The notes beneath the pieces were generated by a model. It did not search any database. It was given only the letters and a program-made list of their open reading frames with translations, and was not told where the DNA came from. A stretch of DNA of 64,000 bases, from assembly GCA_035307765.1 (NCBI GenBank), contig DATGHU010000006.1, forward strand, positions 62,001 to 126,000, in the 5' to 3' direction. Below, piece by piece: positions 8,553 through 52,794 of the stretch. Positions within the stretch are counted from its first letter, which is position 1; the number at the start of each line of letters is the position of its first letter. This DNA comes from a bacterium. Its GTDB lineage: Bacteria > Sysuimicrobiota > Sysuimicrobiia > Sysuimicrobiales > Segetimicrobiaceae. Position numbers and translations under genes: made by a program.

Positions 8553-8564
8553 GGGAGGACGCCG

Positions 8565-9902: not shown

Positions 9903-9907
9903 GGGGG

Positions 9908-11523: not shown

Positions 11524-11561
11524 AGCGGGAAGGACAACTGCCCCATGAGGGAGGGAGCGTC

Positions 11562-16155: not shown

Positions 16156-16578
16156 ATGAAGAGAATCGGTGTGGAGTTGGACGGCGTCACCGTGACCGCC
16201 GTCCTTTTTGAAGACAAAGCCCCCGTGACCGTTGCGAAATTCTGGGAATGTCTGCCGTACGAGGACCGGGTCACACACGGGAAGTGGTCCGGAGATATGT
16301 TCCACACCAATACCGACTTCGCGTTCGAACTCGACGTCTCGAAGTGGGCGTTTGGCATGGAGAACCCCGTCGGGTACCAGGCGCCTGGGGATATTGTCTT
16401 CCTGCCGGTGGCCAAAGAGATTGCCATTGCCTATGGCGGCGCGCGGTTCTCGTGGGTGACCGGGCCGATGATGGTCTCCGCGATCGGCCGCATCGAGGGC
16501 GATCTGACAGAATTCGCCAAGAAGGCCGACCGATTGCAGTGGGAAGGGGCGAAGCGCATCGTTCTGCGACGGCTGTAG
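16156..16578 (+). CDS. DUF3830-family (cyclophilin-like fold) protein
   Basis: 140 residues. I recognise the pattern shared by all copies in this window: an acidic residue before 'APxT' near residue 21 ('EDKAPVT'), 'KWSGDMF' near residue 43, 'PGDIVFLP' near 76, 'IAIAYGGARF' near 88, and a C-terminal 'WEGAKRIVLRR'. DUF3830 is, to my knowledge, a bacterial/archaeal family of unknown function with a cyclophilin-like beta-barrel. No signal peptide, so cytoplasmic. It is the first gene of an operon with a second copy, a cyclodeaminase homologue and a Dpp-type importer, suggesting a role in handling the imported compound (inference). Ribosome site GGAGGG. Confidence 0.75.
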   Translation: MKRIGVELDGVTVTAVLFEDKAPVTVAKFWECLPYEDRVTHGKWSGDMFHTNTDFAFELDVSKWAFGMENPVGYQAPGDIVFLPVAKEIAIAYGGARFSWVTGPMMVSAIGRIEGDLTEFAKKADRLQWEGAKRIVLRRL

Positions 16579-16612
16579 GGGACGGCGTTGGATCAAGAAG
16601 TGGGAGGCGAAC

Positions 16613-17014
16613 ATGAAGCGAGTCGTCGTGGAGTTTGACGGAAAGGCTTTTGATGCCGTGTTGTTCGATGATCAAGCGCCGATCATCTGCAACAACATCT
16701 GGAATGCCCTTCCGTTGGAGGGTCCGGCCACGAATACCAAATGGAGCGGCGATATGCTGCGCCTCTGGGTGCAGATTCCGGAGCCGCCGGAGCGCGAGAA
16801 TATGTCGCAGTTGCAAAACCCAGGGGACATCATCTTCCTGCACAAGTGGAACGGGCTCCGCTTCGTGTACGGTCAGGCACGGATGCAGGGGCCAAACGGG
16901 GCGCATCCGACTCCGCTGGTGGGCCGCATGCTCGGCGGGGTCGAGGAGCTGGCCGCTCTGGGCAGCCGCGTTGAGTGGGAAGGCGCCGCGCGGATCCGGG
17001 TTCGGCGGGCCTGA
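16613..17014 (+). CDS. DUF3830-family protein, second copy
   Basis: 133 residues. It shares 'DDQAPIICNNIWNALPLEG', 'TKWSGDMLRLW', 'NPGDIIFLHKWNGLRFVYGQ' and 'WEGAARIRVRRA' with the family pattern but is clearly diverged from the preceding copy. The two are paralogues, perhaps forming a heterodimer. ATG 16613 has GGGAGGCGA upstream, 34 bases after the previous stop. The cyclodeaminase-like gene follows 25 bases later. Confidence 0.75.
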   Translation: MKRVVVEFDGKAFDAVLFDDQAPIICNNIWNALPLEGPATNTKWSGDMLRLWVQIPEPPERENMSQLQNPGDIIFLHKWNGLRFVYGQARMQGPNGAHPTPLVGRMLGGVEELAALGSRVEWEGAARIRVRRA

Positions 17015-17039
17015 GGGGCGAACCGGGCGCGAGCCGGAT

Positions 17040-18089
17040 ATGGCCTCGTGGGCGGCCACCGTCAAGGAGGGGCTCGCGCAGGTCCAGAGCCGCGGCGGCC
17101 AGCTGATCGGCCCGGGCGACGCCCGGCGCCGCATCGCGTTGGGCGAGGCCGTGGAGATCGTCCGGGACGGTCTGCTCTGGGAGGCGTCGGGGAGAATCGT
17201 GATTCCGCCGGCCCGCCGCGCTGTCTTGCGGGTGCCGCTGCCGGACGGCGAGGCTGGGGTGACGTCGATCTCGAAGTGCTGCGTCATTTCGGAGTTGGAC
17301 GTCGTCGGCTATCGCTTCCTTGGTTCGATCCTCGGCGACGACCCGGTGCGCTATTTGCATATCGCCAGCCTGTCGCGCCGCACGCTCTTGGCCACGATCG
17401 ATGAGCACCTGACATACCTTCTCCGCATCGCGGCGCTGGCGGTCGTGGCCGCGGCGCACACCGTGGCCGCCCCGAGGCCGACGGTCGGCGTCGTCGGCGC
17501 GGGGCGACTGGCGCGGGCCGTGGTTGAGGCGTTGATCGAAGCCGGGCGGGCCGGGGAGGTCGTCGTGACGTCGAGGCATCCCGCATCTCGTGAGCAGCTC
17601 GTGCGAGCGCTCGCCACCGCCGGATTCGCGCGCGCGCACGCCGTGGATAGCGTGCGTGAGGTGGCCGGCCGAGCCGACTTTCTCGTGACCGCGACAAACG
17701 CCATGGCTCCCGTGCTGTCGCCGGAGTGGATCAAGCCCGGGGCGACGGTCTATGGATTGGGCGCGGGGGAGGAGCTGCCGCCCGCTCTGTTCATGCGCGC
17801 GGAGCGCGGGAGCGTGCGGCTCGTCGTGTCGAACTGGGCGGAGTGCGCCGAGCGCTCCGACTTCCGCGGTCTGATCGCAGACGGCCGGGTCAGCAAAGCG
17901 GATGTCGACGCGGAGCTGTGGGAGATCGTCGGGGGGAGGGTGCCCGCCCGGCTGCGGGCGGATGACACCGTGTGCCTGCGGGCCCCCGGAAGTGTCGGAT
18001 TGGACGTTCTGCTGGGGGCGTGGATCTGTGCGCGGCACGCATCGGAGACACGAGCCGCTGTCGACCGAGGAGGGGTGGGGAATGCGTGA
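17040..18089 (+). CDS. ornithine cyclodeaminase / mu-crystallin family protein
   Basis: 349 residues. The Rossmann motif 'VGVVGAGRLARAVVEALIEA' at about residue 157 and 'EVVVTSRHPASREQLV' define an NAD(P)-binding domain. 'FLVTATNAMAPVLSPEWIKPG' and 'VYGLGAGEELPP' follow, as in OCD/mu-crystallin enzymes. Members include ornithine cyclodeaminase, alanine dehydrogenase, ketimine reductase and opine-type enzymes, so the substrate is an amino or imino acid that cannot be named. ATG 17040 has only a weak ribosome site. The stop overlaps the start of the binding-protein gene by 8 bases, which ties the enzyme to the importer. Confidence 0.75.
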   Translation: MASWAATVKEGLAQVQSRGGQLIGPGDARRRIALGEAVEIVRDGLLWEASGRIVIPPARRAVLRVPLPDGEAGVTSISKCCVISELDVVGYRFLGSILGDDPVRYLHIASLSRRTLLATIDEHLTYLLRIAALAVVAAAHTVAAPRPTVGVVGAGRLARAVVEALIEAGRAGEVVVTSRHPASREQLVRALATAGFARAHAVDSVREVAGRADFLVTATNAMAPVLSPEWIKPGATVYGLGAGEELPPALFMRAERGSVRLVVSNWAECAERSDFRGLIADGRVSKADVDAELWEIVGGRVPARLRADDTVCLRAPGSVGLDVLLGAWICARHASETRAAVDRGGVGNA

Positions 18090-19635
18090 GGGACCGGGCC
18101 GAGCGCGGCACACCTTGACTCGCCGCGGCTTCCTGGCCGCCGCCGCGGGGATCGTGAGTGCGGCGAGGCTGTTGGCGCCCCGGGGGGCCTCGGCGCAGGC
18201 GAAGGGGACGCTCCGCATCGCCCGGGGCGCCAACGCCAGGAGCCTGGACCCGCACATCAACGCCCGACTGTACGACCGCGTCGTGCTGTACACGTTGTAC
18301 GAACCGCTGATCGACGCGGACAGTCAGGGGAATTTCTTCCCGGTACTGGCCCGGTCGTGGGAGATCGGATCGACGGGACGCGTCGTGACGTTCCACCTGC
18401 GGCCCGGGGTGGTCTTCCACGACGGGACGCCGTTTACGGCGGAGGTGGTGAAGTACAACATCGAGCGGATTCTGGACCCGGCAACCGGCTCGGAGCACCG
18501 CGTGCGATTCGAAGGAATCATCCAAGGCGTTCGGGCGGTGGATTCCACCACCGCCCAGCTCTACCTGACGCGACCGTACCCACCGCTGTTTTCGGAGCTG
18601 ATGGACCGGCCGGGACTGATGGTCTCGCCGGCGGCGGTGAAGAAGTACGGGAAGGACTTTGCCCGGAACCCGGTCGGGACGGGGCCCTTCAAGTTCGTGG
18701 AGTGGATCCAGGGGAATCGGGTGGTGGTGCAGCGGTACCCCCAATATTGGAACGCGCAGGCGATCCGGTCGGAGAGTATGATCTTCCTGGAGTTTCCGGA
18801 ACCCGCGGTGGCGGACGCGCAGCTGCGCGGGGGGCAGGTCGATGTCGTGACGCTCGAGGGGTTGCCGGCGGAGGATATCTTGGCGTTCCAGAAGGACACC
18901 GCCTACCGGGTGATCCCGAGCCCGGCGTATGCGTGGGCGGCGATTGAGATGAAGGTGGACGTGCCCCCGTTCGACAACCGGGACCTGCGGCAGGCGATCA
19001 TGTACGCGATCGATCGGGAGCAGATCGTCAAAGTGATCTACCACGGACTGGGGAAGGCGACCGGCAAGTTCTTTCACGAGGGGTGGTGGGCGGACCCGAG
19101 TTACAACGGGCCGAAGTACAGACCGGAGATGGCCCGACAAAAGCTGAAGGCCTCGGGCTATCTGGACAAGCCGACCCCGCTCCTGCTGTATGTCCTGAAT
19201 TCCACCGTGCCGCTCGGGGAGATGATCCAGGCGCAGATGCAGGCGATCGGCCTGGAGATCAATATCCGCCTCGTCAGCGAGCGCGACCAGTATCCGATGG
19301 TCCTCCGGGGGGAAATCCCCTTCTCCGTCCCATCAACCTGGACCCCACGCCCCGATCCCCACGGCCTCGCGTACATCTTGTGGGACTCCAAGGGCTACGC
19401 GGACAGTTCCCACTATTCGAACCCACAGGTCGATAAGCTGCTGGAGGATGCGTCGGCCACGTACGACAGGAAGGTGCGGACGAAGCTGTACCGGCAGGCC
19501 GAGCGGCTGATCGTCGACGATGCCTCGTACGTCTTCTACTATGCCAGCCCGGACTACGCGATCACAAGGCGGGACGTCCAGGGGTTCCGCTACGGCTTCG
19601 ACCTGATCCCGCGCGTCGCCGGGGCCTGGGTGTAA
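18082..19635 (+). CDS. Dpp/Opp-type ABC transporter substrate-binding protein
   Basis: 517 residues, SBP_bac_5 family. An N-terminal Tat-like signal ('LTRRGFLAAAAGIVSAARLL') precedes a cut near 'GASAQA'. Family hallmarks include 'LRIARGANARSLDPHI', 'FHLRPGVVFHDGTPFTAEVV', 'NPVGTGPFKFVEW' and 'LRQAIMYAIDREQIV'. Despite the peptide-binding name, this family also binds oligosaccharides, opines, nickel and other solutes. ATG 18082 has GAGGAGGGGTGGGG upstream. It is followed by a stable hairpin and two permease genes. No ATPase genes follow. Confidence 0.88.
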   Translation: MREGPGRARHTLTRRGFLAAAAGIVSAARLLAPRGASAQAKGTLRIARGANARSLDPHINARLYDRVVLYTLYEPLIDADSQGNFFPVLARSWEIGSTGRVVTFHLRPGVVFHDGTPFTAEVVKYNIERILDPATGSEHRVRFEGIIQGVRAVDSTTAQLYLTRPYPPLFSELMDRPGLMVSPAAVKKYGKDFARNPVGTGPFKFVEWIQGNRVVVQRYPQYWNAQAIRSESMIFLEFPEPAVADAQLRGGQVDVVTLEGLPAEDILAFQKDTAYRVIPSPAYAWAAIEMKVDVPPFDNRDLRQAIMYAIDREQIVKVIYHGLGKATGKFFHEGWWADPSYNGPKYRPEMARQKLKASGYLDKPTPLLLYVLNSTVPLGEMIQAQMQAIGLEINIRLVSERDQYPMVLRGEIPFSVPSTWTPRPDPHGLAYILWDSKGYADSSHYSNPQVDKLLEDASATYDRKVRTKLYRQAERLIVDDASYVFYYASPDYAITRRDVQGFRYGFDLIPRVAGAWV

Positions 19636-19644
19636 GCGGTCGGC

Positions 19645-19663
19645 CGACCGGCCACGCCGGTCG
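19645..19663 (+). other. stable intergenic hairpin between binding-protein and permease genes
   Basis: A perfect 8-base stem, CGACCGGC / GCCGGTCG, closed by a CAC loop lies 10 bases after the binding-protein stop and 15 before the permease ATG. It has no T-run, so it is not a classical terminator. In binding-protein operons such hairpins commonly protect the upstream mRNA segment from 3' exonucleases or cause partial termination, giving more binding protein than permease. That role here is inference. Confidence 0.6.
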
Positions 19664-19677
19664 TCGGAGACGCCCCG

Positions 19678-20625
19678 ATGTGGCGCTACGTGCTGCGGAG
19701 AGTCATCATCTTGATCCCGACCGCGCTGGTGGTGACGCTCGGCATCTTCGTCCTGATGCGGACCGCGGTGGGGGGGGATCCGACGCTCTATCTGATGGGG
19801 CACGAGGCGACGCTTCAGCAGGCCGCGCAAGCGCGGGCGCGATTGGGTCTCGATCGACCGATCATCGTCCAGTACCTGGATTGGCTGCGCCGCTTGGGCT
19901 CGCTTGATCTCGGCCGGTCGTTCGAGTACCCGATGGACGTACGATCGGCGCTGGCGGGCCGGCTGCCGGCGACGCTGGAACTCACGCTGCTGGCGACGCT
20001 CCTGGCTCTGCTGACCGCGATCCCAGCCGGGGTCTTCACCGCGGTCGCCGGGTCCAGCCCGCTCGGGCGTGTGGCGACGGCGGCCACTATGGCCGGCATC
20101 TGCGTCCCGAACTTCTGGCTCGGGATGCTGCTCATCTACCTCTTCGGCGTAGAACTGGGTTGGCTGGCGAACAGCGCCTACGTTCCGTTCACCGAGAACT
20201 GGAGACAAAATATCGCGTCGATGCTGCTCCCGGCGGTCAGCCTGGCCGCGTACTACTCGGCGTCGTGGACCCGCTATCTCAGCTCGGCGCTTCTCGATGT
20301 CCTGCACAGCGATTACATCCGAGTGGCCCGCGCCAAGGGACTGATGGACCGGACCATCCTGTACAAGCACGCGCTGCGCAACGCGATCATCCCGCTGGTG
20401 ACGGTCGTTGGTCAGAGCGTCCCGTATATGCTGGCGGGTGCGGTCATCGTGGAGGTGGTGTTCAGCCTCCCCGGGATTGGGCGGCTGTTCAGCGATGGAA
20501 TCCAGTCGCGCGATTACCCGGTGGTCCAGGGGACCGTGCTGCTCGTGACGATCGCCGTCGTGTTGAGCAGCCTGGTCGTCGACCTCGCGTACGGCGTGCT
20601 CGATCCCCGCATCAAGTACGACTGA
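19678..20625 (+). CDS. Dpp/Opp-type ABC transporter permease (DppB-like)
   Basis: 315 residues, BPD_transp_1 family, with about six membrane helices beginning 'VIILIPTALVVTLGIFVLM'. The cytoplasmic EAA loop 'VARAKGLMDRTILYKHALRN' is the docking site for the ATPase. 'LSLPGIGRLFSDGI'-type and 'LDPRIKYD' endings are typical of DppB. ATG 19678, GGAGACG upstream, second transporter gene of the operon. It would form the membrane channel with the next gene product. Confidence 0.88.
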   Translation: MWRYVLRRVIILIPTALVVTLGIFVLMRTAVGGDPTLYLMGHEATLQQAAQARARLGLDRPIIVQYLDWLRRLGSLDLGRSFEYPMDVRSALAGRLPATLELTLLATLLALLTAIPAGVFTAVAGSSPLGRVATAATMAGICVPNFWLGMLLIYLFGVELGWLANSAYVPFTENWRQNIASMLLPAVSLAAYYSASWTRYLSSALLDVLHSDYIRVARAKGLMDRTILYKHALRNAIIPLVTVVGQSVPYMLAGAVIVEVVFSLPGIGRLFSDGIQSRDYPVVQGTVLLVTIAVVLSSLVVDLAYGVLDPRIKYD

Positions 20626-20635
20626 CCGCTTCCGG

Positions 20636-21568
20636 ATGGCGATGGTGCTGCAGCGGCTTGCGCGACAACTCACCACTCCGAGCGGCGAGATTTTGGGGGT
20701 AGCGGTCTTCCTCCTGGTCGCTGCGGCGGCCTTCCCACGGCTGCTGAGCCCGTACGATCCGATCCAGATCCAGGGAACCCTCAGCATGCGGGCGCCCACC
20801 TGGGGTCACACCCTGGGCACCGATCTGCTCGGCAAAGATGTGCTGAGCCAGATCATCTACGGCACGCGGACGACCCTGCTGATCGGCGCGAGCGCTGTCT
20901 TGCTGAGCCTCGTTGCCGGGACCTTGATCGGGCTCGTCTCGGGATTCTGGGGCGGGAGCATGCTCGATGAGACCCTGATGCGGCTGATCGACGCGCTGTA
21001 CATCTTCCCCGATCTCATTCTTGCACTGACGATCGTGGCGATCCTCGGCCCCGGGCGGATCGAGAGCGTGATCATTGCGCTCGCGATCGGGCACGTCGCG
21101 GCCTATGCGCGGCTCGTCAGGAGCCGAGTGCTCGCGCTGCGGGGAGCCGAATTCGTGGCCGCGGCCCGCAGCCTCGGTGCCTCGGCCAACCGGATTCTCG
21201 TCCGGCACATTTTGCCTCAAACCACCGACGTGCTCGTGGTGCGGTCGGTGATCGCGCTCTCGTCGGTCGTCCTCGGGGAGGCGGCACTCAGCTTCCTCGG
21301 TCTGGGTGTGCAGCCCCCGACGCCGAGCTGGGGTCGGATGCTGCGCGATGGTTTCCAATACCTCGCCACGGCGCCGTGGGTCGCCTTCTCCCCAGGATTC
21401 GCGATCTTTCTGACGGTGTTCCTCTTCAATCATGTCGGAGAGATGATCCGGGATGTGTTGGATCCGCACGCGTTGATGGCTCGGACGCCCTCCGCCGCCG
21501 CGCGGAGACCCCCGAATCCCACACGACCGATGGGGGACGCCACGCCGGTTCCCACGTCGAAGGAGTGA
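20636..21568 (+). CDS. Dpp/Opp-type ABC transporter permease (DppC-like)
   Basis: 310 residues. The N-terminal 'LLSPYDPIQIQGTLSMRAPT' and 'LGTDLLGKDVLSQIIYGTRT' are the periplasmic DppC signature. The EAA loop 'AARSLGASANRILVRHILPQ' and 'LGEAALSFLGLGVQPPTPSW' follow. It starts 10 bases after the DppB stop. The C-terminal 30 residues after 'DVLDPHALM' are a low-complexity extension rich in Pro, Arg and Ala, longer than usual. No dppD or dppF follows. Confidence 0.87.
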   Translation: MAMVLQRLARQLTTPSGEILGVAVFLLVAAAAFPRLLSPYDPIQIQGTLSMRAPTWGHTLGTDLLGKDVLSQIIYGTRTTLLIGASAVLLSLVAGTLIGLVSGFWGGSMLDETLMRLIDALYIFPDLILALTIVAILGPGRIESVIIALAIGHVAAYARLVRSRVLALRGAEFVAAARSLGASANRILVRHILPQTTDVLVVRSVIALSSVVLGEAALSFLGLGVQPPTPSWGRMLRDGFQYLATAPWVAFSPGFAIFLTVFLFNHVGEMIRDVLDPHALMARTPSAAARRPPNPTRPMGDATPVPTSKE

Positions 21569-22044
21569 GCAATCCTTGTCTGTCGTGACCATCGCGGGCA
21601 CGGGTGGAACCTTGGGCCTCCGGCGGTGCGTCGGGATCGCCGCGACACCCTTTCGGCGGGTTGCCGGCCGCCGCGTCCGCTCGTCGGACCTGCCCCTCCG
21701 TCGTGCCGCCGGCCCGCGCGGACCGCACGCGCCGGAGCGTGTTCGGGATGCTCCGCATGAAGGCGTCGCACCCGCTCCCTGCGGGCGGATGTTCGGGCCA
21801 CTGGCGATGCAGCAAGCGCACACCGCGGCCCGGGCAGATCCCTTTCGCGGGCGACCCGCGTGCCCTGACCTCGATCAGAGGACTCCGGCTCCAGGCCGCC
21901 GCGCCGGCACTTTGCACGCCGGGAAAACGCGGGAGCTGCTCAAGGCGCCAAGCCGGGCCCCGCGGGCCCCTCCCGGGAGAGCGGGAACCGCCGTAGCAGA
22001 GCACCAATCAGGAGCACTTCTAGAACAATTGAGGAGGCGGAACA
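21569..22044 (+). other. 476-base GC-rich intergenic region, no gene recognised
   Basis: Open frames exist on both strands but none has a family-like sequence. The long plus-strand frame runs on into the next gene, as expected by chance at this base composition. A GGGCCC-CGC-GGGCCC self-complementary stretch lies at 21955-21969. The end of the region (AATTGAGGAGGCGGAACA) is the ribosome site of the next gene. A promoter for the following DUF3830 pair should lie here but I cannot place it. Confidence 0.4.
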
Positions 22045-22932
22045 GTGACGCGGATCGAGATCGTGCTCGGCGACCAAGTGTTTCACGCTACGCTCTTTGC
22101 GGACACCGCGCCAAAAACCACTGCGGCGGTGCTGCGAGCCATGCCCTTCGAGGGCCGGGCCGTGCACGCCCAGCTCAGCGGGGAGATGTTCCGGATGTTC
22201 GAGCATGCTCCCATCGCCGTCGACGAAACGGAGAATCGCGAGTCGTTTCAGCATCCAGGTGAGATTGTCTACTACCCGCCGATCAAGGAAATCGCGATCG
22301 CGTACGGCGGAGCACGGTTCCGGGGCACGGCGGGGTTCCTGTACTTGACCCCGCTCGGGATGATCGACGCGGAGGAGATCCCCCAACTCGCGAAGGTGGC
22401 CGATCGGCTGCAGTGGGACGGCGCGAAGCGGATTCAGTTTCGCCGGGCGGAAGGCAAGGAGGCATCCGCCGGCGCCTCCCGCGCACAGCCGGGTGGGGGA
22501 ATCAAGCGTCAGATCGAGCTGGACCTGGACGGGGTGAGCGCGGTGGCGCACCTCCTCGATGAGACCGCACCCCAAACGACGCGCGCGCTCTGGGATGCGC
22601 TCACGCTCACCGGCTCGGTCACGAACACCAAATGGAGCGGCCAGATGCTGCGCTTCTGGGGAAAAGAGGGAGCCCTCGGCGAGACACCGATCCGGTTGAC
22701 GGCGCCGGAGAACGGTCAGGTGCTGCACTGGCCGGGGTATGTGTACTATCACCCGCAATATCGGGGGATCCGCGTGTGCTACGGACAGGCGCAACAGAGC
22801 GGGCCGACCAGTGTGTCCACCCTCACCCCGGTCGCCAAGATCACCGGCGACTGGTCGGCGTTCTTGGACAAAGCCAAAGCGATCATGTTCGAGGGAGCGA
22901 AGACCATGACGATTCGCCGCAAGGAGACCTAG
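22045..22932 (+). CDS. tandem DUF3830 protein (two cyclophilin-like domains fused)
   Basis: 295 residues, twice the usual family length. Domain 1 (about residues 1-133) has 'ADTAPKTTAAVLRAMPFEG', 'LSGEMFRMF', 'PGEIVYYPPIKEIAIAYGGA' and 'WDGAKRIQFRRA'. After a Gly/Ala/Ser linker, domain 2 (about 155-293) has 'DETAPQTTRALWDALTLTG', 'TKWSGQMLRFWG', 'WPGYVYYHPQYRGIRVCYGQ' and 'FEGAKTMTIRR'. Domain 1 resembles the 16156 product and domain 2 the 16613 product, so this looks like a fusion of the same pair. GTG start 22045 with GAGGAGGCGG upstream. Confidence 0.78.
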   Translation: MTRIEIVLGDQVFHATLFADTAPKTTAAVLRAMPFEGRAVHAQLSGEMFRMFEHAPIAVDETENRESFQHPGEIVYYPPIKEIAIAYGGARFRGTAGFLYLTPLGMIDAEEIPQLAKVADRLQWDGAKRIQFRRAEGKEASAGASRAQPGGGIKRQIELDLDGVSAVAHLLDETAPQTTRALWDALTLTGSVTNTKWSGQMLRFWGKEGALGETPIRLTAPENGQVLHWPGYVYYHPQYRGIRVCYGQAQQSGPTSVSTLTPVAKITGDWSAFLDKAKAIMFEGAKTMTIRRKET

Positions 22933-22935
22933 GCC

Positions 22936-23346
22936 GTGGAGCTGCAAATCGTGTTGGCCGGCGTGACCGGACGTGTCGAACTGCTCGACGCCAAGGCACC
23001 GCGCACCGTGAAGGCGCTGTGGGCGGCGCTGCCGATTATCGATCGGGCGGTTCAGGTGAAATGGTCGGGCGACGCGTGGCGGACCGAGGGTGATTACGAC
23101 ATCGGTGTTCACGACGTCGAGAACGAGGGGCACGTGCTGGCAGCCGGCGACGTGATCTACTACCCGCGAATGAAAAAGATCGGGCTGGCGTACGGCCGGG
23201 CGGAATGGCGCCACCCGGATTTGTCGATTGCGCTCCATGTCTCTGTGATCGGCAAGGTGACGGCGAACCTGGACGAACTTTCCGCAGCGGGCCAACGGGT
23301 TTGGATGGAGGGGGCTCAGCCGCTGCGGCTGAGCCGGGCGGAGTAG
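22936..23346 (+). CDS. DUF3830-family protein
   Basis: 136 residues with 'LDAKAPRTVKALWAALPIID', 'VKWSGDAWRTEG', 'AAGDVIYYPRMKKIGLAYGR' and 'MEGAQPLRLSRAE'. GTG start 22936 lies three bases after the tandem DUF3830 gene, with AAGGAG upstream, so the two are translationally linked. A perfect hairpin overlaps the last codons. The next genes are convergent, so this two-gene unit has no importer on its own strand; the nearest is the convergent set at 23908-27476. Confidence 0.75.
   Translation: MELQIVLAGVTGRVELLDAKAPRTVKALWAALPIIDRAVQVKWSGDAWRTEGDYDIGVHDVENEGHVLAAGDVIYYPRMKKIGLAYGRAEWRHPDLSIALHVSVIGKVTANLDELSAAGQRVWMEGAQPLRLSRAE
23313..23335 (+). terminator. perfect 10-base-pair hairpin at the 3' end of the DUF3830 unit
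   Basis: GGCTCAGCCG at 23313-23322 and CGGCTGAGCC at 23326-23335 are exact reverse complements with a CTG loop. The hairpin sits inside the last 11 codons of the gene. No T-run follows, so intrinsic termination is uncertain. It may instead protect the transcript end or act with Rho. Confidence 0.4.
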
Positions 23347-23907
23347 GCTCTTTGACGTCGGCGCCGCTGAGGGGGGCCAGCGATGACAACGTCGGTCAGG
23401 CGCCGCGGTCCGGACCGTACACACGGGAGTACGGCGTTGACGACAACTACAGCGGGTCGGCGGCGAAGGCCGCACAGGGCTGCAAGCCCAGGCGGCGGCT
23501 CTTCCGTCTCTGGCGCGGAGGGGGCATGCTCGACCCCTCGGACCGCGGGAGTACGGTTCTGAGCCGCAACCGAACGGCCAAGGGCTGTCCGAGTGGACCC
23601 AACCGGTCGCCACCACTTTGGCTCGTGGCCATCCGCATCCGGTTTGCCTCGGGCGGCCGAAAGGCTTCCCTACAAACCGGTAGGGGAAGCGCGCCCAAAG
23701 GCTCCCGCAATTCGGGCTTCCACCACGGACGGACTCCAGCGGGGGACGAACTGGCTGTCCTCCGGGGCGTCGACACCGCGACGAGGCGTGTCACCGCTGC
23801 GGATCCGCTTCATCGTTGCCGCCCCGTCAAGCTCTGTTGGGGGGCGTCTACACTCAGGGGGTGTGGAGGTTCATGATATAGTTCGCCCCCGCAGCCGCGC
23901 GTCACGC
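23347..23907. other. 561-base convergent intergenic region with a stem-loop
   Basis: This stretch lies between two convergent operons and contains no frame I can support. GCTTCCCTAC (23664-23673) pairs with GTAGGGGAAGC (23680-23690) across a 6-base loop with one bulged G. The structure would form on either strand and is a candidate bidirectional transcription end. The rest shows no repeats or family similarity. Confidence 0.4.
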
Positions 23908-24825
23908 TCACAGCGAAGGATCGAGGAGGTCCCGAATCCCGTCCCCGAGCAGGTTGAGGCCCAACACCGTGAGCATGATCGCCATGCCCGGCGTGATGGC
24001 CGTCCACGGAGCCTGATCTAGGAACGGATAGCCGTAACGCAGCATCGACCCCCACGATGCAGTCGGCGGTTGGACGCCGAGCCCAAGAAACGACAATGAT
24101 GCTTCGGTGAGAATGGCAAAACTGACGGTCAGCGTGCCCTGGACGACGACAAGCCCAAGCAGATTCGGCAATAGATGGCGTCGCAGAATGCGCGCCGGCG
24201 GCGCGCCGACGGCCCGTGCCGCATGGATGAACTCCATTTCGCGGAGTGCGAGGACTTGGCCGCGCACCAGCCGCGCGAACCGTGGCATCGCGACCAACGC
24301 GATTGCGAGTGTGGCGTTCGTCACGCTGGGGCCGAGCACCCCGACGATCGCGATCGCCAGGACCATCGTCGGAATGGAGAACAGTAGGTCCATCAGACGC
24401 ATCAGCGCGCCGTCGAGCCACCCGCCCCAGAAACCACTCGCCATACCCGCGGGCACGCCCACGACCGCCGCGGTCAGCGTGGCAACGACGCCGATCCCAA
24501 TGGAAATCCGCCCCCCCGCAAACACCCGGCTCAGGATGTCGCGGCCGAGGTCGTCGGTGCCGAGCCACCAGGTGCGCGATGGGGGGATCAGCAGCGCCGA
24601 CACGTGCACGGCGTTGGGCGGCGTTGGGTCAACGGTCGGACCGACCACTGCGACGAGCAGCATGCCGAGGGAGAGTAATCCGCCCACACAAGCAAGCCGG
24701 TGCCGGGTCACAAAGCGGGCGCCGGTGACGAAGATCCCGCCCGAGGTGGGTATTCGAGTGCCCTGAGCGACGTATGTAGCGACCACGGCGTTACCCGTAC
24801 CGGATACGAGGGTCGGCCCACGCAT
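23908..24825 (-). CDS. Dpp/Opp-type ABC transporter permease (DppC-like)
   Basis: 305 residues. Signatures: 'WWLGTDDLGRDILSRVFAGG', EAA loop 'AARAVGAPPARILRRHLLPN', 'LTEASLSFLGLGVQPPTASW' and 'DGIRDLLDPSL'. The first 40 residues are a longer than usual lead; an internal start at about residue 33 is possible. The gene overlaps the end of the DppB gene by 35 bases if the ATG at 24825 is used. It is the last gene of the isochorismatase-binding protein-permease operon and has no following ATPase gene. Confidence 0.85.
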   Translation of the reverse strand: MRGPTLVSGTGNAVVATYVAQGTRIPTSGGIFVTGARFVTRHRLACVGGLLSLGMLLVAVVGPTVDPTPPNAVHVSALLIPPSRTWWLGTDDLGRDILSRVFAGGRISIGIGVVATLTAAVVGVPAGMASGFWGGWLDGALMRLMDLLFSIPTMVLAIAIVGVLGPSVTNATLAIALVAMPRFARLVRGQVLALREMEFIHAARAVGAPPARILRRHLLPNLLGLVVVQGTLTVSFAILTEASLSFLGLGVQPPTASWGSMLRYGYPFLDQAPWTAITPGMAIMLTVLGLNLLGDGIRDLLDPSL

Positions 24826-25738
24826 AGAGCACGTCGGCCAATAGGTTCGCGGCGATCAGCGCGAGCGCCATGAAGAGCGTGACCGCCTGGAGCACAGGGA
24901 AGTCCCGGTCCAGGACCGAGTCCACCGCGAGACGCCCGATGCCCGGCAGGGCGAAGATCGTTTCGGTCACGACGGCCCCGCCGAGGAGGCGGCCGGTTTC
25001 GAGCGCCACCACGGTGATGATCGGGATGAGCGCGCTCCGCAGGACGTGACGAGCCACCACCCGTGATTCCTGGATGCCCTTCGCCCGTGCGGTCTTGATG
25101 TAATCCGCCTTGATCACGTCCAGCACGCTCATGCGCGCGATACGCATGACCACCGAAACGTACGACATCCCGAGGGTGATGACGGGGAGGATCATCAGGC
25201 GGAGGTTGGGGCCCAGCCCCCGCCAGGGCGGCGCGTACCCCGACGGCGGCAACCAATGCAGCCGCACGGCGAACAGGAGGATGAGCAACACGCCGAGCCA
25301 AAACGCCGGCATGGCGAGCCCCAGGGCGCCGATGCCGGAGATCAAGGCATCCAGCCCGGTGTTCCGGCGAAGCGCGGCGATGACGCCCAGCGGGACTGCG
25401 ATGCTCAGGGCGCCGGCGATCGCAAACACCGTGAGCTCGATCGTCACCGGCAGCCGCGCCGTGATCTCAGAGGCCACGCGAGATTTCGACCGGTAGGAGT
25501 ACCCCAGGTCGCCGTGAAGCGCCCGGCGCAGCCACCATCCGTACTGCACATACAGCGGTCGGTCAAGCCCGAGTTGGTGGCGGAGCGCGGCCGCGACCTG
25601 CGGGCTCGCGAGGTCGTCGCTGAGCATCGTCGTGACCGGGTCGCCGGGCGCGAGATGCAGCATTGAGAAGACGCCGATACTGAGGAACAGGAGCACCGGC
25701 AGGGTCGCGAGCATCCGGTGGAACAGGAACCGCATCAT
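24791..25738 (-). CDS. Dpp/Opp-type ABC transporter permease (DppB-like)
   Basis: 315 residues, beginning 'MMRFLFHRMLATLPVLLFLS' and containing 'LHLAPGDPVTTMLSDD', 'LPSGYAPPWRGLGPNLRLMI'-type periplasmic loops and the EAA loop 'TARAKGIQESRVVARHVLRS'. It ends 'AWADPRIRYG' as usual for DppB. It lies 154 bases after the binding-protein stop. That gap contains CTCGCCG/CGGCGAG inverted repeats at 25812-25818 and 25833-25839, which may separate binding-protein from permease expression. Confidence 0.87.
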   Translation of the reverse strand: MMRFLFHRMLATLPVLLFLSIGVFSMLHLAPGDPVTTMLSDDLASPQVAAALRHQLGLDRPLYVQYGWWLRRALHGDLGYSYRSKSRVASEITARLPVTIELTVFAIAGALSIAVPLGVIAALRRNTGLDALISGIGALGLAMPAFWLGVLLILLFAVRLHWLPPSGYAPPWRGLGPNLRLMILPVITLGMSYVSVVMRIARMSVLDVIKADYIKTARAKGIQESRVVARHVLRSALIPIITVVALETGRLLGGAVVTETIFALPGIGRLAVDSVLDRDFPVLQAVTLFMALALIAANLLADVLYAWADPRIRYG

Positions 25739-25892
25739 CGCCGCGGCCTCATGGGATGGCCGGAAAGTGCGGTGCCGTCATGGAACAGGCCGGTAATCGG
25801 CAGGGCGCGTACTCGCCGGTTGGCACAGACTTCGGCGAGGGTCGCCATGATAGGCGCCGCAGAGGAAGTCCTAATCTTTCTTTGGCGGAGCC

Positions 25893-27476
25893 CTATTGCT
25901 GCAACCACACGGCTTTGAACCGCATCATGGTATCCGGGATCGCCGGGAGACCTTGGACCTGCTTCTGCATTCCAATCATGAGGTTCTCAAAGACCTGGAA
26001 CACCCAGGGGGCGTCTTCGACAACCTGGCGCTGAATCTGCCGGTAGAACCGGATTCGCTCAGGACCGTTTGGGATCACCCGCGTCTTCTCGAAGAGGGCG
26101 TCCACCATCGGGTTGCTGTAGGACACGGAATTCACGTTCCCCTTCGTGCTGAAGTGATTGTACATCGTGCCGTCGATGTCCGGTCGGGGGGTCCATGATC
26201 CGATCACGGCCTGGTAGCGTTTTCCGGTAATGCGGTCCTGCAGGGTCGTCGGATCGTATGCCTGGATGTTGGCCGTGATCCCGGCCTCCGCGAGCTGTGC
26301 CCGGATCAACTGGGCGAGTCGGGCTTGTTCCGGCGACGTGGAGATCTCAAGCGTGAAGGAGAAGCCTTTTGGCTGCCCACCCTCAACGAGTTTCGCCTTG
26401 GCCTTGTTGATATCGGTCAGATAGCCATACGCGCTGACCGCCGGATCGAAATACTGGCGGTACACAGGCGAGATCGGGCCGTACGCCGGTCGGGCCTGAC
26501 CAAAATAGATCGCGGTGACGATCTGGTCGCGGTTCACGGCGTACGAGACTGCCTGTCGAAGCGCTTTGCTGCTGAACGGCGGCATCGCGTTGTTCAGCCG
26601 AATCATCGGCCAGCGCGCTCCGGACAGCAGGATCGTATGGAACCGCGGATCATTGCGCACGGCCCGCTGCTCGCGGGCCGGCACGGTGTCGATGACATCG
26701 AGGCTGCCGGCGCGCAGGTTGGCCATCTTGACAGTTTCGTCGGGGGTCGGGTGGTAGATGATCTCATCCAGGTACGGGAGGCCGCGTTCCCAGTAGTTGT
26801 CGAACCGCTTCAGCGTGATGTGATCGTTCTTCACCCACTCCACGAACCCAAACGGCCCGGTGCCGACCGGGTGCAGGCCGTATTGGTCTCCCCACTTTCG
26901 GACCGCGGTCGGTGAGGACATGAACCCGGGCCCCTCGGTGAACCAGGAAAGCAGGGGGGTGAACGGCGCACTGAGGTCAAGCTCTAAGGTCGCCGGGTCG
27001 ACGACACGGGTCTCCTTGATTGGCGCGAGAATCGTGCGAAAGGCCGACCCGGTCTCGGGGTTCAACATCCGGTCGATGTTGAACTTCACCGCACTCGCAT
27101 CAAAACTCGTTCCGTCCTGGAATCGGACGCCGGTTTGGAGGTGGAACGTCACACGCAGCCCGTCCGGCGAGATGCTCCAACTCTTGACGAGTTCGGGCTT
27201 GATGGTGAAGGAGGAGTCAAGCGCAAAGAGGGGGTTAAAGATCGAGTAGAAGATCTGCCGTTCGTTGACGTTTGTGTAATGTGCCGGATCCAGCGTGCCC
27301 CAGTCGCCGCTAATCCCCACGCGCAAGGTACCGCCGCGTGTCGGTGACTGCGCGGAGGCTCGTCGGATACCCCAGTCGGGGAACAACATCCCCCCCGCGG
27401 CCACCGCCGCCACCAGCATTCCGGTGATCAGACGGACCGCCATTGTGCACAATCGCGACCACGGCCGGTTGGACAC
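25893..27476 (-). CDS. Dpp/Opp-type ABC transporter substrate-binding protein
   Basis: 527 residues, SBP_bac_5 family. A long hydrophobic signal ('MAVRLITGMLVAAVAAGGML') ends near 'RRASAQS'; there is no Tat twin-arginine in the usual place, so Sec export is likely. Hallmarks: 'LRVGISGDWGTLDPAHYTNV', 'FHLQTGVRFQDGTSFDASAV', 'HPVGTGPFGFVEW' and 'LRQAVSYAVNRDQIVTAIYF'. GTG 27476 has GGAGGGGG upstream; ATG 27443 is an alternative just before the signal. It is preceded by the isochorismatase-like gene (70-base gap). Confidence 0.87.
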   Translation of the reverse strand: MSNRPWSRLCTMAVRLITGMLVAAVAAGGMLFPDWGIRRASAQSPTRGGTLRVGISGDWGTLDPAHYTNVNERQIFYSIFNPLFALDSSFTIKPELVKSWSISPDGLRVTFHLQTGVRFQDGTSFDASAVKFNIDRMLNPETGSAFRTILAPIKETRVVDPATLELDLSAPFTPLLSWFTEGPGFMSSPTAVRKWGDQYGLHPVGTGPFGFVEWVKNDHITLKRFDNYWERGLPYLDEIIYHPTPDETVKMANLRAGSLDVIDTVPAREQRAVRNDPRFHTILLSGARWPMIRLNNAMPPFSSKALRQAVSYAVNRDQIVTAIYFGQARPAYGPISPVYRQYFDPAVSAYGYLTDINKAKAKLVEGGQPKGFSFTLEISTSPEQARLAQLIRAQLAEAGITANIQAYDPTTLQDRITGKRYQAVIGSWTPRPDIDGTMYNHFSTKGNVNSVSYSNPMVDALFEKTRVIPNGPERIRFYRQIQRQVVEDAPWVFQVFENLMIGMQKQVQGLPAIPDTMMRFKAVWLQQ

Positions 27477-27546
27477 GTGTCACCCCCTCCACCATTCGCC
27501 ACCCTGATTCGATACGGTTGTGCGGGAATGCTCCTGCGTCGTTCGG

Positions 27547-28206
27547 TTAGTCATGCGGTACGCGGACGCGCTGCAGCCACTTCTCGACGTGTCCGAGTGG
27601 GCGGACCAGCGAGTACTTCTGGGCCATATCGAATAGGTTGATGCGGTGCGGCGTTGGGGCGCGATCGAAGACGCACTCTTCCACGACGATGGTGCGAAAG
27701 TGGTAGTCATGGGCATCGACGACGGATGCCCGGACACAGCCGCTCGTCGTACATCCTGTCACCAGGAGGGTGTCGACGCGGAGCCCCATGAGATAGGCGG
27801 CGAGAGGCGTTCCAAAGAACGCGCTGGCCGCCGCTTTTCGATAGACCGCGTCGTGGCGTCGTGGGGCAAGCTCCCGGACGATATCGGTTCCCCGGCGGGC
27901 TTCGTGGCGGGTCGCACCCGCGGTTCGAGGGAACCCGTGTGTGTACACGATCGGCACGCCGCGCGCCCTGGCGATCCGCAGCAACCGGGCGATCTTCGGG
28001 ATGCTTCGCCATGCGATCTCGCCACAGCTGTTCCGGAACTTGGCGATAGACGACAGGATCGGCTCCGGTTTGTCTCCCGTGAAGTTGTATTCCATGTCGA
28101 CCACGAGCACCGCCGGCCGCCGGCCTTCCTTCGGCAAGCGGCCGTAACCGGCGCGGCGGTACACTTCGAGTTCATCTGCACCGATGAGTCCATTCCAGGC
28201 GTTCAT
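27547..28206 (-). CDS. isochorismatase-fold cysteine hydrolase (N-carbamoylsarcosine amidase-like)
   Basis: 219 residues. The catalytic triad is visible: Asp37 in 'AVLVVDMEYNF', Lys124 in 'AVYRKAAASAFFGT', and Cys157 in 'VTGCTTSGCVRASVVDAHDY'. The last phrase is that of N-carbamoylsarcosine amidohydrolase, maleamate amidase and related amide hydrolases rather than true isochorismatase. It is the first well-supported gene of the importer operon, so it probably hydrolyses an amide or ureido group on the imported compound (inference). Its ATG overlaps the stop of a small upstream ORF (ATGA). Confidence 0.82.
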   Translation of the reverse strand: MNAWNGLIGADELEVYRRAGYGRLPKEGRRPAVLVVDMEYNFTGDKPEPILSSIAKFRNSCGEIAWRSIPKIARLLRIARARGVPIVYTHGFPRTAGATRHEARRGTDIVRELAPRRHDAVYRKAAASAFFGTPLAAYLMGLRVDTLLVTGCTTSGCVRASVVDAHDYHFRTIVVEECVFDRAPTPHRINLFDMAQKYSLVRPLGHVEKWLQRVRVPHD

Positions 28207-28454
28207 CGTGTGGCGCGATCCATGCGGGGCATTTGATGGCGCTGCCTTGGCGCTAGTGTCGCCTGCATCATGTCCTCGCCGGCCGACCGCTCTACCTCGT
28301 CGGGGCTGCGGCGGCGGACGAGGGCCCGGCGGTCCCGCGCCGAATCACCCGCCCACTTCGCGGATCGTACGATGGGCGAGTTCGCTGAGGGGTTTTTGTC
28401 TGCGATTGTGCGTCGGATTGAGTCGAGATTCGCCAGCGCGTGGGTTTTTGCCAT
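28203..28454 (-). CDS. small ORF coupled to the cysteine hydrolase, unknown
   Basis: 83 codons. Its ATG at 28454 has a good ribosome site (GGAGGGCACC) and its TGA overlaps the hydrolase ATG as ATGA. The first 30 residues ('MAKTHALANLDSIRRTIADK') look plausible, but the second half is Arg/Ala-rich and could be read in another frame, where '...PLSELAHRTIREVGG' then stops. It may be a real small protein, or a frameshifted remnant of one. No family recognised. Confidence 0.3.
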   Translation of the reverse strand: MAKTHALANLDSIRRTIADKNPSANSPIVRSAKWAGDSARDRRALVRRRSPDEVERSAGEDMMQATLAPRQRHQMPRMDRATR

Positions 28455-28530
28455 GGTGCCCTCCGCGTGATTTCATTAGCCGCAACCTGAAGCAGGACGT
28501 GAGTCGCGCCGATCGTATTCGGGCACCCGT

Positions 28531-28560
28531 CCAAAGGTCGTACACCGGTAGCACCTTTGG
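28531..28560. promoter_or_regulatory. inverted repeat, candidate operator or hairpin
   Basis: CCAAAGGT (28531-28538) and ACCTTTGG (28553-28560) are exact reverse complements separated by 14 bases. The spacer holds ACCGGTA, which recurs at 28751-28777. It lies 76 bases upstream of the small minus-strand ORF start. Confidence 0.4.
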
Positions 28561-28750
28561 CATACCATAGCTTTTTCGCGCATGGTCAAATCACCTGCGG
28601 AACCTCAACATGGGACGTTTTTCGGACGTGCCTGCGACTGCCGAGACCAGTCGCTTGCCAGAGCAGGACGAACGACTGCCATCGAGAACGTATGCACCAA
28701 ATAACACGTACGCATCTTCCTTATATGAGGACACATGACGGGGCGGCAAG

Positions 28751-28777
28751 GTACCGGTAGCGGGAGTGCACCGGTAC
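28751..28777. promoter_or_regulatory. inverted repeat upstream of DUF3830, candidate operator
   Basis: GTACCGGT (28751-28758) and ACCGGTAC (28770-28777) are exact reverse complements with an 11-base spacer, so the centres are 19 bases apart, about two helical turns. It lies 79 bases before the DUF3830 ATG. It fits a dimeric repressor or activator site; the regulator is unknown. Confidence 0.45.
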
Positions 28778-28855
28778 GGCATGGCGATCGGCAGCCACTT
28801 CGTTGGAGGTTGCGCCGAGTGGGATATCCGCTGACGATCGTCGAGGCGGGAGCGG

Positions 28856-29275
28856 ATGTATAAGATCATGATCGACCTAGGTGGCACAAAGGCGGGCGCG
28901 GAACTCTGGGACGAAAAGGCCCCGAAGACGATCGCGGCGTTGCTGCGGCATTTTCCCATGGCCGACCGGACCATTCACGTGCGGTGGTCCGGGGCCGCGT
29001 GGCGGACTGAAAAGAATTATCCACTCGAGATCGGGAAGGTCGAGAACCCCGCTACCTGGTTGGATCCCGGAGACATCATTTACTATGACGATCCACGATA
29101 CCAGCTTTACAAGCTGGCGTTCGCCTACGGCAAGAGCCAGTGGCGGGACGACAAGGGCGAGCTCCACGTTGCACGGATCGGCAAGGTGATCGATAGCCTC
29201 GACGCCTTCGTCAAGGCGAGCGACGAGGTGTTGTTTTGGGGGCCGAAGGCGGTGACGATCCGTCTTGCGCCGTGA
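28856..29275 (+). CDS. DUF3830-family protein
   Basis: 139 residues. Pattern elements: 'WDEKAPKTIAALLRHFPMAD', 'VRWSGAAWRTEKNYPLEIG', 'DPGDIIYYDDPRYQLYKLAF' and 'FWGPKAVTIRLAP'. It is closest to the 22936 product ('VKWSGDAWRTEG'). ATG 28856 with GGCGGGAG upstream. It is the first gene of an operon continuing with a binding protein, two permeases and a TcuAB-like pair. This is the clearest case in the window of DUF3830 leading an importer operon that also carries catabolic enzymes. Confidence 0.75.
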   Translation: MYKIMIDLGGTKAGAELWDEKAPKTIAALLRHFPMADRTIHVRWSGAAWRTEKNYPLEIGKVENPATWLDPGDIIYYDDPRYQLYKLAFAYGKSQWRDDKGELHVARIGKVIDSLDAFVKASDEVLFWGPKAVTIRLAP

Positions 29276-29392: not shown

Positions 29393-31009
29393 ATGCGCGA
29401 CAGGAATCGGCAGGTGGATTCCTTGAATCGAACGGCATCCTTCCCACGCCGGCGTCGCATCACTCGCCGGGACCTTCTGCGGATGAGCGCTGGGGCCGGG
29501 CTTGGCCTGGCGCTGGCGCGCGATGCGGCGACGCGCGCTACGGCCTTCGCGGCACCCCCCCCACAGCCAGGAGGGATCTTGCGTGTGGGAGCGGTGGCCG
29601 ATACGCACACCCTGGACCCACACTTTTCCGTGGATTGGTCGGAGCGGCCCGTGATGTACGCGATCTACAACACGCTCGTCTCCGCGACGCCGACGTTCGA
29701 AATCGCCCCCGAATTAGGTCGATCCTGGAAGATCTCCGCGGATGGGCTGACGATCACGGTCTCATTGCAGCCGAATGTCAAATTTCACGACGGGACCGTC
29801 TGCGACGCCGAAGCCGTGAAGTGGAACATCGACTTCATCCTGGACAAGGCGAACAACTCCCCCCAATTCAAACAACTCGACCCGTTTCTCTCCGGCGTCG
29901 AGGCCAGCGGGCCGACGACGGTGGTGTTTCGCCTGAAGAAACCCTACGCGGGATTCCTCGCCGCCTTTACCGAACGCCCCGGCTTCATCGTCTCCCCCGC
30001 GGCGTATCAAAAGTACGGTAAGGATTTTGGCCGCAATCCGGTCGGGACGGGGATGTTTCAATTCGTGGAGTGGCTCCCGGATGACCACGTGTCGGTCAAG
30101 CGGTTTGACGGGTATTGGGGTAGGTCCAAGGCGTCCCTCGATGGCATCACCTACAGGGTCGTCCCCGATCCCGCGGTTCGCGACACGATGGTCCGCACAG
30201 GCGAGCTCGACATCACCAGCGAGCCGGATCCCAAGGACATCGCGGTGCTTCAGAAGAGCCCTGGGGTGAAGGTTGTGAGCGAGAATCCGTCGGGTCATTG
30301 GTGGGGGGTCCAGTGGCGGGTCGACCGTCCCCCCTTCAATAACAAGGCACTCCGGCAGGCGATTGCGTACGGGATCGACCGCGGTGAATTCGTGAAAGTG
30401 ATGCTCGGGGGGCGGGGCAGCATCGCCAACGGGCCCACCCCGTCGATTGTGTGGTGGTACAGCCGGACCGCGAAGGGGTTCTCCTACGATCCCGATCGTG
30501 CCAAGCAGTTGCTGGCGGAAGCGGGGTATCAGAATGGTTTCTCGGCCCAATTCTCAACCGACAATACGCCGGTGGGACTCCAGTTCGCCCAGTTGCTGCA
30601 GGCCCAGCTCAAGCGGATCAACGTGACCCTGACGATCAACCCGGTCGACCCGTCAAATCTGTACCAGGAGGTCCTGCAGCAGAAGGTCAACTGGACACGG
30701 ACGGACTGGACGCTCCGGGCGGATCCAGACGGGCTGCTGCGGATTTTGTTCTACACCGGCAACTACGCGAATTCGACGGGGTACTCGAATCCAACCGTCG
30801 ATAAGCTGCTCGACCAAGGCAACTCCACATACGACCGCAACGCGCGGAAGAGTATCTACGCGCAGATCGAACAACAGGTGATCGACGACGCGCCGTACGT
30901 GTGGGTCTTTTATCCGTCCGAGGATGCGCCGATGCGGACAACGGTTCAAGAATACGCGTGGATCCCGGATTCGGTGCCGCGGTACCGCAGCCTTTGGCTG
31001 GCAAAGTGA
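29393..31009 (+). CDS. Dpp/Opp-type ABC transporter substrate-binding protein
   Basis: 538 residues, SBP_bac_5 family, with a Tat-type signal ('ITRRDLLRMSAGAGLGLALA') and cleavage near 'ATAFAAPP'. Hallmarks: 'LRVGAVADTHTLDPHFSVDW', 'VSLQPNVKFHDGTVCDAEAV', 'NPVGTGMFQFVEWLPDDHVS' and 'LRQAIAYGIDRGEFVKVMLG'. ATG 29393 has AGGGAGGGGGAG upstream. Seven bases after its stop the DppB gene begins. With TcuAB downstream, the ligand may be a tricarboxylate or related organic acid rather than a peptide (inference). Confidence 0.87.
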   Translation: MRDRNRQVDSLNRTASFPRRRRITRRDLLRMSAGAGLGLALARDAATRATAFAAPPPQPGGILRVGAVADTHTLDPHFSVDWSERPVMYAIYNTLVSATPTFEIAPELGRSWKISADGLTITVSLQPNVKFHDGTVCDAEAVKWNIDFILDKANNSPQFKQLDPFLSGVEASGPTTVVFRLKKPYAGFLAAFTERPGFIVSPAAYQKYGKDFGRNPVGTGMFQFVEWLPDDHVSVKRFDGYWGRSKASLDGITYRVVPDPAVRDTMVRTGELDITSEPDPKDIAVLQKSPGVKVVSENPSGHWWGVQWRVDRPPFNNKALRQAIAYGIDRGEFVKVMLGGRGSIANGPTPSIVWWYSRTAKGFSYDPDRAKQLLAEAGYQNGFSAQFSTDNTPVGLQFAQLLQAQLKRINVTLTINPVDPSNLYQEVLQQKVNWTRTDWTLRADPDGLLRILFYTGNYANSTGYSNPTVDKLLDQGNSTYDRNARKSIYAQIEQQVIDDAPYVWVFYPSEDAPMRTTVQEYAWIPDSVPRYRSLWLAK

Positions 31010-49457: not shown

Positions 49458-49481
49458 GGAAGAGTTTACTCGGGCGCGGGG

Positions 49482-50462: not shown

Positions 50463-50465
50463 GCG

Positions 50466-51233: not shown

Positions 51234-51543
51234 CGCCGCCTCCATGACGTTGCGCTCGCCTGCCGGTCGTCGGTTCCGGCGGGGAGACGGGGCGGTGGCC
51301 GCCTCGGCCCCATCGGCCTCGCTCAGAAAGAAGGGATCTCGGCCTGATGAAAGATCGTGCAAATCCTCAAAAGAAACTGCAATAGACTTCTGATACGATA
51401 GCAGAAGGCGACTTTCCTGGGAAGGGTGTGCCGTTTCGGTGGAGAAGATGGAAGAGTTCGGGAGTAACCCGCCGTAGCGCTCGGGCCCATAAAGGCCGGA
51501 GTGTTGAGATGACGTCGCCGTATTCCCAACGAGGAGGCTCACG
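51234..51543 (+). other. 310-base divergent promoter region between iclR and the DegT array
   Basis: No gene. AT-richer than neighbours at 51345-51410. It contains the dyad at 51388-51408 annotated below and ends with the ribosome site CGAGGAGG for the first DegT gene. Both the regulator and the array should be transcribed from here. Confidence 0.5.
51388..51408. promoter_or_regulatory. 21-base dyad, candidate IclR operator
   Basis: CTTCTG (51388-51393) and CAGAAG (51403-51408) are perfect 6-base arms around ATACGATAG; in all 8 of 10 pairs match. It sits in the iclR-DegT divergent promoter, the usual place for an autoregulated IclR site. TCTG...CAGA also frames the 46201 dyad, though with a different spacer. 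Confidence 0.5.
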
Positions 51544-52713: not shown

Positions 52714-52794
52714 CACCCTCCAGCGGGCGCGCGCCATGACGGCGGGTGCGCCGATCGTCCCCATCGTCGCCCCCGTGGACGCGGTGTAGGGGCG

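Follow-up and report, generated by a model that had tools for sequence, protein, structure and literature searches.

The 64-kb window analysed here, a stretch of 64,000 nucleotides on contig DATGHU010000006.1 from a bacterium of the phylum Sysuimicrobiota (the host phylum below), encodes six DUF3830 domains in five genes that head or face three Dpp-type importer operons. We tentatively propose that DUF3830 is a cytosolic enzyme applying acid-base chemistry to C–N bonds at hemiaminal or imine carbons in ureide-type catabolism, and that in the host phylum it has been multiplied into paired, hetero-oligomeric sets. Pfam curates the family and a structure is available (3KOP), yet in the literature searched no paper mentions DUF3830 or 3KOP, which agrees with the preliminary description of this DNA, where the family was said to have no assigned function. 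None of the papers links cyclophilin-like proteins with hydantoin, and two on purine degradation leave a DUF3830 protein unmentioned.

All five genes score 51.0–80.9 bits against the hidden Markov model of PF12903 (DUF3830; gathering score 26 bits), which confirms the number of genes and domains given in the preliminary description. All are encoded on the + strand: A (16156..16578, 140 amino acids, 61.3 bits), B (16613..17014, 133 amino acids, 52.0 bits), the fused gene C-D (22045..22932, 295 amino acids, 80.9 bits in two stretches), E (22936..23346, 136 amino acids, 61.5 bits) and F (28856..29275, 139 amino acids, 51.0 bits). A six-frame search of the whole host genome finds exactly six DUF3830 domains, all at these loci and none elsewhere. 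The other copies are 32–44% identical to copy A. Common to all six domains, in the numbering of gene 16156, are L17, A22-P23, S45-G46, E69-N70, G78, Y93-G94 and G131; at position 41, copies A, C and F carry His, B and D carry Asn and E carries Gln. The APxT, WSG, PGD and AYG strips described earlier are real, but not every position in them is strict. The T is missing in 16613, the W is missing in the N-domain of 22045, and in both halves of 22045 the G-D of the PGD-type turn is altered, to G-E or G-Y. Missing from the earlier list is the most strictly conserved residue, the Glu in the E-N motif. It is kept in 87/87 domains of an alignment that covers the host phylum as well as pseudomonadotal and haloarchaeal plasmids, and no other polar residue is invariant there. 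Against PF04126 (Cyclophil_like, gathering score 27 bits), 22045 (40.0 bits) and 22936 (35.8 bits) score over the threshold, and 16156 (23.9), 16613 (20.3) and 28856 (24.6 bits) score under it. Among Pfam families at E<=0.001 the DUF3830 genes show no match to a cyclophilin peptidyl-prolyl isomerase domain, a Pfam scan of the window DUF3830 proteins gives no match to the AllA family PF04115, and for the three DUF3830 proteins scanned against NCBIfam that collection has no model.

The fold is a cyclophilin-like barrel as in 3KOP, as judged from an AlphaFold2 model of 16156 (pLDDT 90.0, pTM 0.86), and in this the preliminary description was right. Foldseek ranks 3KOP first, followed by TM1367 and then by the Pictet-Spenglerases McbB and KslB. 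A profile of 28 DUF3830 sequences retrieves 3KOP (8e-21), AF2241 (1.5e-12) and TM1367 (4e-7), with weak matches to McbB (0.0011) and KslB (0.0036). DUF3830 thus appears to be related to the Pictet-Spenglerase barrel, in a form with one domain. The window proteins consist of 133–140 amino acids or of two DUF3830 domains, with neither a helical bundle nor another Pfam domain after the barrel. Similarity of the 16156 model to CypA is at fold level only (TM ~0.6). For the fused gene 22045 the model is too weak (pLDDT 76.8, pTM 0.54) for its domain packing to be read.

For the neighbourhoods in the host phylum, 22 DUF3830 loci were compared with 17 control stretches from five of the same genomes. 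These genomes are mostly fragmented, the control sets are small, and genes in unannotated loci were called by a simple codon-model script with predicted start codons. A Dpp-type permease stands beside DUF3830 at 16/22 loci vs 1/17 controls (p=2.5e-5), SBP_bac_5 at 15/22 vs 3/17 (p=0.002) and a luciferase-like (LLM-class) oxidoreductase at 13/22 vs 0/17 (p=6e-5), p values that overstate the evidence because the loci are akin to each other. The LLM-class oxidoreductase is the tightest neighbour, its frame overlapping that of DUF3830 or standing within 26 bp of it in 11 loci. The window carries one such gene upstream of the DUF3830 genes (14611..15624, - strand, TIGR03619 family, 196 bits, cut-off 166.9); in a relative (L061) its orthologue belongs to the DUF3830 operon and precedes the fused gene by 45 bp. 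TcuA/TcuB, SDR, MBL and enoyl-CoA hydratase genes show no enrichment near DUF3830 in the relatives. A near-invariant luciferase-like neighbour is also found at loci with three DUF3830 genes. Together with the small size of the proteins, their tandem and fused copies and the few strictly conserved polar residues, this would suit a role without catalysis, as a binding protein, as a carrier or as an accessory subunit to a neighbour, be it a cyclic amidohydrolase or the luciferase-like oxidoreductase. We regard such a role as somewhat unlikely, given that the Glu persists in every aligned domain despite ~30% identity and that the partner enzyme families vary by lineage.

The expansion of DUF3830 and its fixed, position-specific sets in the host phylum are new. 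The domain occurs there in 10/43 genomes with 2–13 matches each, and in Pseudomonadota in 28/398 genomes, always as a single copy. The tree is built on few columns and has long branches, and some of its forks are unsure; in it, B is sister to the C-domain of 22045 (support 99/93), A groups with the N-domain of 22045 (94/76), and E is sister to F (100/96). By the first two groupings, a single ancestral pair gave rise both to A/B, whose genes are separate, and to the fused C-D. That former partners became fused suggests an interaction between them. The 22045-type fusion has orthologues in five relatives at 72–78% identity. A second locus type consists of three tandem DUF3830 genes and is found in seven genomes, one of them from another family, with each position forming its own clade. 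These three-gene arrays are conserved at loci L048–L055; at L048–L051, L053 and L054 an LLM-class oxidoreductase similar to mer/F420 families stands beside the array, and Tau/Ssu-type importers are close by. Tandem copies exist outside the host phylum too, as a plasmid of Paracoccus pantotrophus carries a DUF3830 pair (L083, 8462–9381), in the vicinity of which ureidoglycine aminohydrolase and a Dpp importer are encoded.

Adjacent copies are conserved complementary partners, one pair of them fused, which points to hetero-oligomers and not just to separate enzymes with one substrate each. The preliminary description saw the copies as tuned to different substrates, which is incomplete in this light. 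In its strict form, six independent enzymes with one per importer and no hetero-oligomers, that view could draw on the presence of at least one DUF3830 copy near each importer operon and on the low identity to copy A. We consider it improbable in view of the common ancestral pair and of the triplet positions, which form conserved clades across six genomes and one more from another family.

Outside the host phylum, DUF3830 keeps company with enzymes of cyclic amides and ureides. On plasmids its neighbours are dihydropyrimidinase, an allantoinase-like amidohydrolase, the cyanuric acid hydrolase AtzD, an Asp/Glu racemase and acetamidase/formamidase. In haloarchaea they are an amidohydrolase, an M20 hydrolase and a D-2-hydroxyacid dehydrogenase, and in Halalkalicoccus DUF3830 lies within a xanthine dehydrogenase/uricase/UraD/UraH cluster. 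A PuuE-like protein is encoded directly downstream of DUF3830 at ~30/80 alphaproteobacterial loci, in a survey biased by its query, a tighter alphaproteobacterial/betaproteobacterial alignment. In L104 and L135, the identities of PuuE, UraD-HIUase and allantoate amidohydrolase are over curated cut-offs. A random draw across Pseudomonadota (398 genomes, 28 DUF3830 loci) was made to correct this bias. It places PuuE beside DUF3830 at 10/28 loci and a ureide enzyme within 4 kb at 13/28; within 5 kb the count is 13/28 vs 1/20 controls (p=0.0016). Five further Pseudomonadota loci share an arrangement of GntR, DUF3830, TIGR04076, aldo/keto reductase, a Liv-type importer and a pipecolate-oxidase-like protein. 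An FAD oxidase is near DUF3830 at 8/28 loci vs 1/20 controls (p=0.04), a category defined after the loci were seen. At L236, L237, L239 and L240 (~9.4–11.8 kb), DUF3830 is followed directly by the TIGR04076 protein and the aldo/keto reductase; TIGR04076 looks like a second protein of unknown role in the same pathway.

The importer link claimed in the preliminary description holds in the host phylum but not in this draw, where SBP_bac_5 lies within 5 kb at 0/28 loci and a Dpp permease at 1/28. A Dpp-type importer recurs beside DUF3830 in haloarchaea and some alphaproteobacteria, and the link is mostly lineage-local. The wider link of DUF3830 is to allantoin/ureide and cyclic-amide catabolism, with whichever importer suits the substrate.

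The same association is seen between genomes. DUF3830 occurs in 27/142 PuuE-positive vs 1/256 PuuE-negative Pseudomonadota genomes (n=398, p=2.8e-12, a statistic that, like those for the size classes, ignores phylogeny), so that 27/28 DUF3830-bearing genomes carry the allantoinase PuuE. For genomes of at least 3.5 Mb with listed size the counts are 27/130 vs 1/51 (p=6e-4). DUF3830 might be a non-orthologous ureidoglycolate lyase, or a ureidoglycine enzyme, with the lyase converting ureidoglycolate to glyoxylate and urea and so completing allantoin breakdown. Operons of DUF3830, PuuE and allantoate amidohydrolase (L135, L152) in genomes that have neither AllA nor allantoicase fit this, as do the haloarchaeal amidohydrolase/M20/DUF3830/2-hydroxyacid dehydrogenase clusters, one of which adjoins urease, and the Paracoccus pair beside AllE (ureidoglycine aminohydrolase) and an M20 hydrolase. 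Replacement by DUF3830 predicts that AllA is rarer where DUF3830 is present. AllA was found in 18/27 DUF3830-positive vs 83/115 DUF3830-negative genomes with PuuE (p=0.64), and in 5/10 where DUF3830 adjoins PuuE (p=0.16), which gives no anticorrelation. A simple replacement of AllA is thus not supported among PuuE-positive Pseudomonadota. The lyase also mismatches the hydantoinase/DHDPS, pipecolate-oxidase-like and window contexts, and we hold it to be quite unlikely as a general function. Since several Bradyrhizobium genomes with a DUF3830-PuuE locus have neither AllA nor allantoicase, such a role is possible in some lineages. Equally hard to favour is a function in racemising or tautomerising hydantoin-like rings, in which the one invariant Glu would take the acidic C5 proton for a stereospecific ring opener: DUF3830 is indeed encoded directly beside allantoinases and hydantoinases, but a gene of the Asp/Glu (hydantoin) racemase family is often in the same cluster, which would make the activity redundant, and the window copies have no adjoining amidohydrolase-type ring opener.

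We return to the proposed enzyme for C–N bonds at hemiaminal or imine carbons. A ureide, cyclic amide or imino acid would be imported, and a partner enzyme (cyclic amidohydrolase/allantoinase, FAD amine oxidase or luciferase-like oxidoreductase) would open its ring or oxidise its C–N carbon. At the resulting carbinolamide (N–C–OH) or imine carbon, DUF3830 would make or break the C–N bond, its invariant Glu acting as acid/base, and the carbonyl acid would be released to an aldo/keto reductase, a 2-hydroxyacid dehydrogenase, a DHDPS-type lyase or a reductase of the ornithine cyclodeaminase (OCD) type. DUF3830 is placed at this step because its upstream partners leave an N–C–O carbon or an imine, while the downstream ones take a carbonyl or reduce an imine. 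By analogy, the acid/base role of the Glu would be in line with the carbinolamine/iminium chemistry of the structurally related Pictet-Spenglerases. The pairs and triples of the host phylum, one of them fused, would most likely be hetero-oligomers serving several importer operons.

Several points weigh against this proposal. Catalysis, the type of C–N reaction, the hetero-oligomers and the substrates are all inferred. The residues of McbB that we take to be catalytic are not conserved in its profile alignment with DUF3830, and for this reason we dropped their transfer. The co-occurrence with PuuE weakens to 9/89 vs 1/50 at 3.5–5.5 Mb (p=0.07), the FAD-oxidase link is post hoc, and the AllA counts above do not support a replacement of AllA. 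UraD is absent from the DUF3830-richest genomes of the host phylum, so the substrate there would not be urate-derived allantoin and those copies would serve other substrates. The host genome has a single UraD copy on another contig, and with this distribution we rejected urate degradation as the pathway of the window.

A more specific version, which we hold with greater reserve, is that DUF3830 proteins make up a new class of enzymes, related to Pictet-Spenglerases but with one cyclophilin-like domain, which act on ureido or imine carbons in allantoin, hydantoin and related catabolism. In the host phylum they would be obligate heteromers (pairs, triples, fusion), and would be coupled both to luciferase-like oxidoreductases and to a number of ABC importers. 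If DUF3830 is catalytic, purine/ureide nitrogen recycling would gain a further enzyme, and the fold, known elsewhere from prolyl isomerases and alkaloid synthases, would gain another enzyme lineage. In Pseudomonadota the domain is nearly confined to PuuE-positive genomes, and in many Bradyrhizobium species it lies immediately upstream of puuE; together these findings yield a short list of substrates for assays in culturable organisms.

The three importer sets of the window each have the Dpp/Opp-type composition of SBP_bac_5 and two BPD_transp_1 permeases, and the DUF3830 genes stand to them as first described. Operon 1 (+) runs from DUF3830 A and B through an OCD/mu-crystallin family protein resembling imine reductases (17040..18089, PF02423 72.9 bits; no NCBIfam equivalog model over cut-off), SBP_bac_5 (18082..19635, start predicted by the codon model, open frame from 17902; PF00496 E=2.7e-81), DppB (19678..20625, BPD_transp_1 E=1.5e-39) and DppC (20636..21568, E=5.7e-27); C-D and E follow 476 bp on. 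The distances from A through E are 34, 25, -8, 42, 10, 476 and 3 bp. Facing it, operon 2 (-) encodes an isochorismatase-family amidohydrolase (27547..28206, PF00857 E=1.4e-28), remote to BiuH and RutB with matches to their models far below cut-off, followed by SBP_bac_5 (25893..27476, E=1.7e-90), DppB (24791..25738, E=2.6e-37) and DppC (23908..24825, E=9.4e-32). Operon 3 (+) comprises DUF3830 F, SBP_bac_5 (29585..31009, open frame from 29393; E=6.8e-90), DppB (31016..31960, E=6.8e-34), DppC (32055..32837, open frame from 31887; E=5.8e-23), a TcuA-family FAD-dependent tricarballylate dehydrogenase (32843..34231, NF006130 632 bits, cut-off 369) and a TcuB-family 4Fe-4S protein (34218..35315, TIGR02484 353 bits, cut-off 246.6), the last two above the equivalog cut-offs for tricarballylate utilisation. 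No dedicated ABC ATPase gene (DppD/DppF) was matched anywhere in the window for any of the three importers, nor for a fourth SBP_bac_5 gene (61738–63315). Oligo_HPY ATPases are encoded on other contigs of the host genome, so the importers probably share ATPases.

Elsewhere, the window encodes a hydantoinase/oxoprolinase subunit A (PF01968, 43025–45058), of an ATP-dependent cyclic-amide hydrolase family, and a neighbour of 583 amino acids (41277–43028), possibly subunit B. A 2-hydroxyacyl-CoA dehydratase-type cluster at 7383–12545 contains two HGD-D (2-hydroxyglutaryl-CoA dehydratase) subunits, a BcrAD/BadFG ATPase and a BadI-like enoyl-CoA hydratase. The region 46325–55085 contains two DegT/DnrJ/EryC1-type aminotransferases, at 46325 and 51562, possibly for amino-sugar biosynthesis.

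Among known systems, the closest is 3KOP itself, a DUF3830 protein of Arthrobacter sp. FB24 with a TM-score of 0.83 to the query and the E-N...GD motif in common. It is a single uncharacterised domain, whereas the importer operons of the window hold six divergent copies, two of them fused. The PF04126 proteins TM1367 and AF2241 belong to the same superfamily and share the E-N-x7-GD-x2-(Y/F) strip, but among the five window genes the PF04126 cut-off is passed only by 22045 and 22936; the TM1367 paper assigned no function. Ureidoglycolate lyase AllA, which depends on nickel, is another small barrel protein (PMC3793230) and has the same pathway setting in allantoin loci. It is a cupin, whereas DUF3830 is cyclophilin-like and has neither a PF04115 match nor an anticorrelation with AllA. 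The bacterial Pictet-Spenglerases and cucumopine synthases (McbB, KslB) have a cyclophilin-like domain that matches strongly in fold (Foldseek probability 1.00, TM-score to the query mostly 0.66–0.78) and weakly in sequence profile. These proteins are about twice as long, carry a C-terminal helical bundle and are biosynthetic, whereas DUF3830 is single-domain and has catabolic neighbours.

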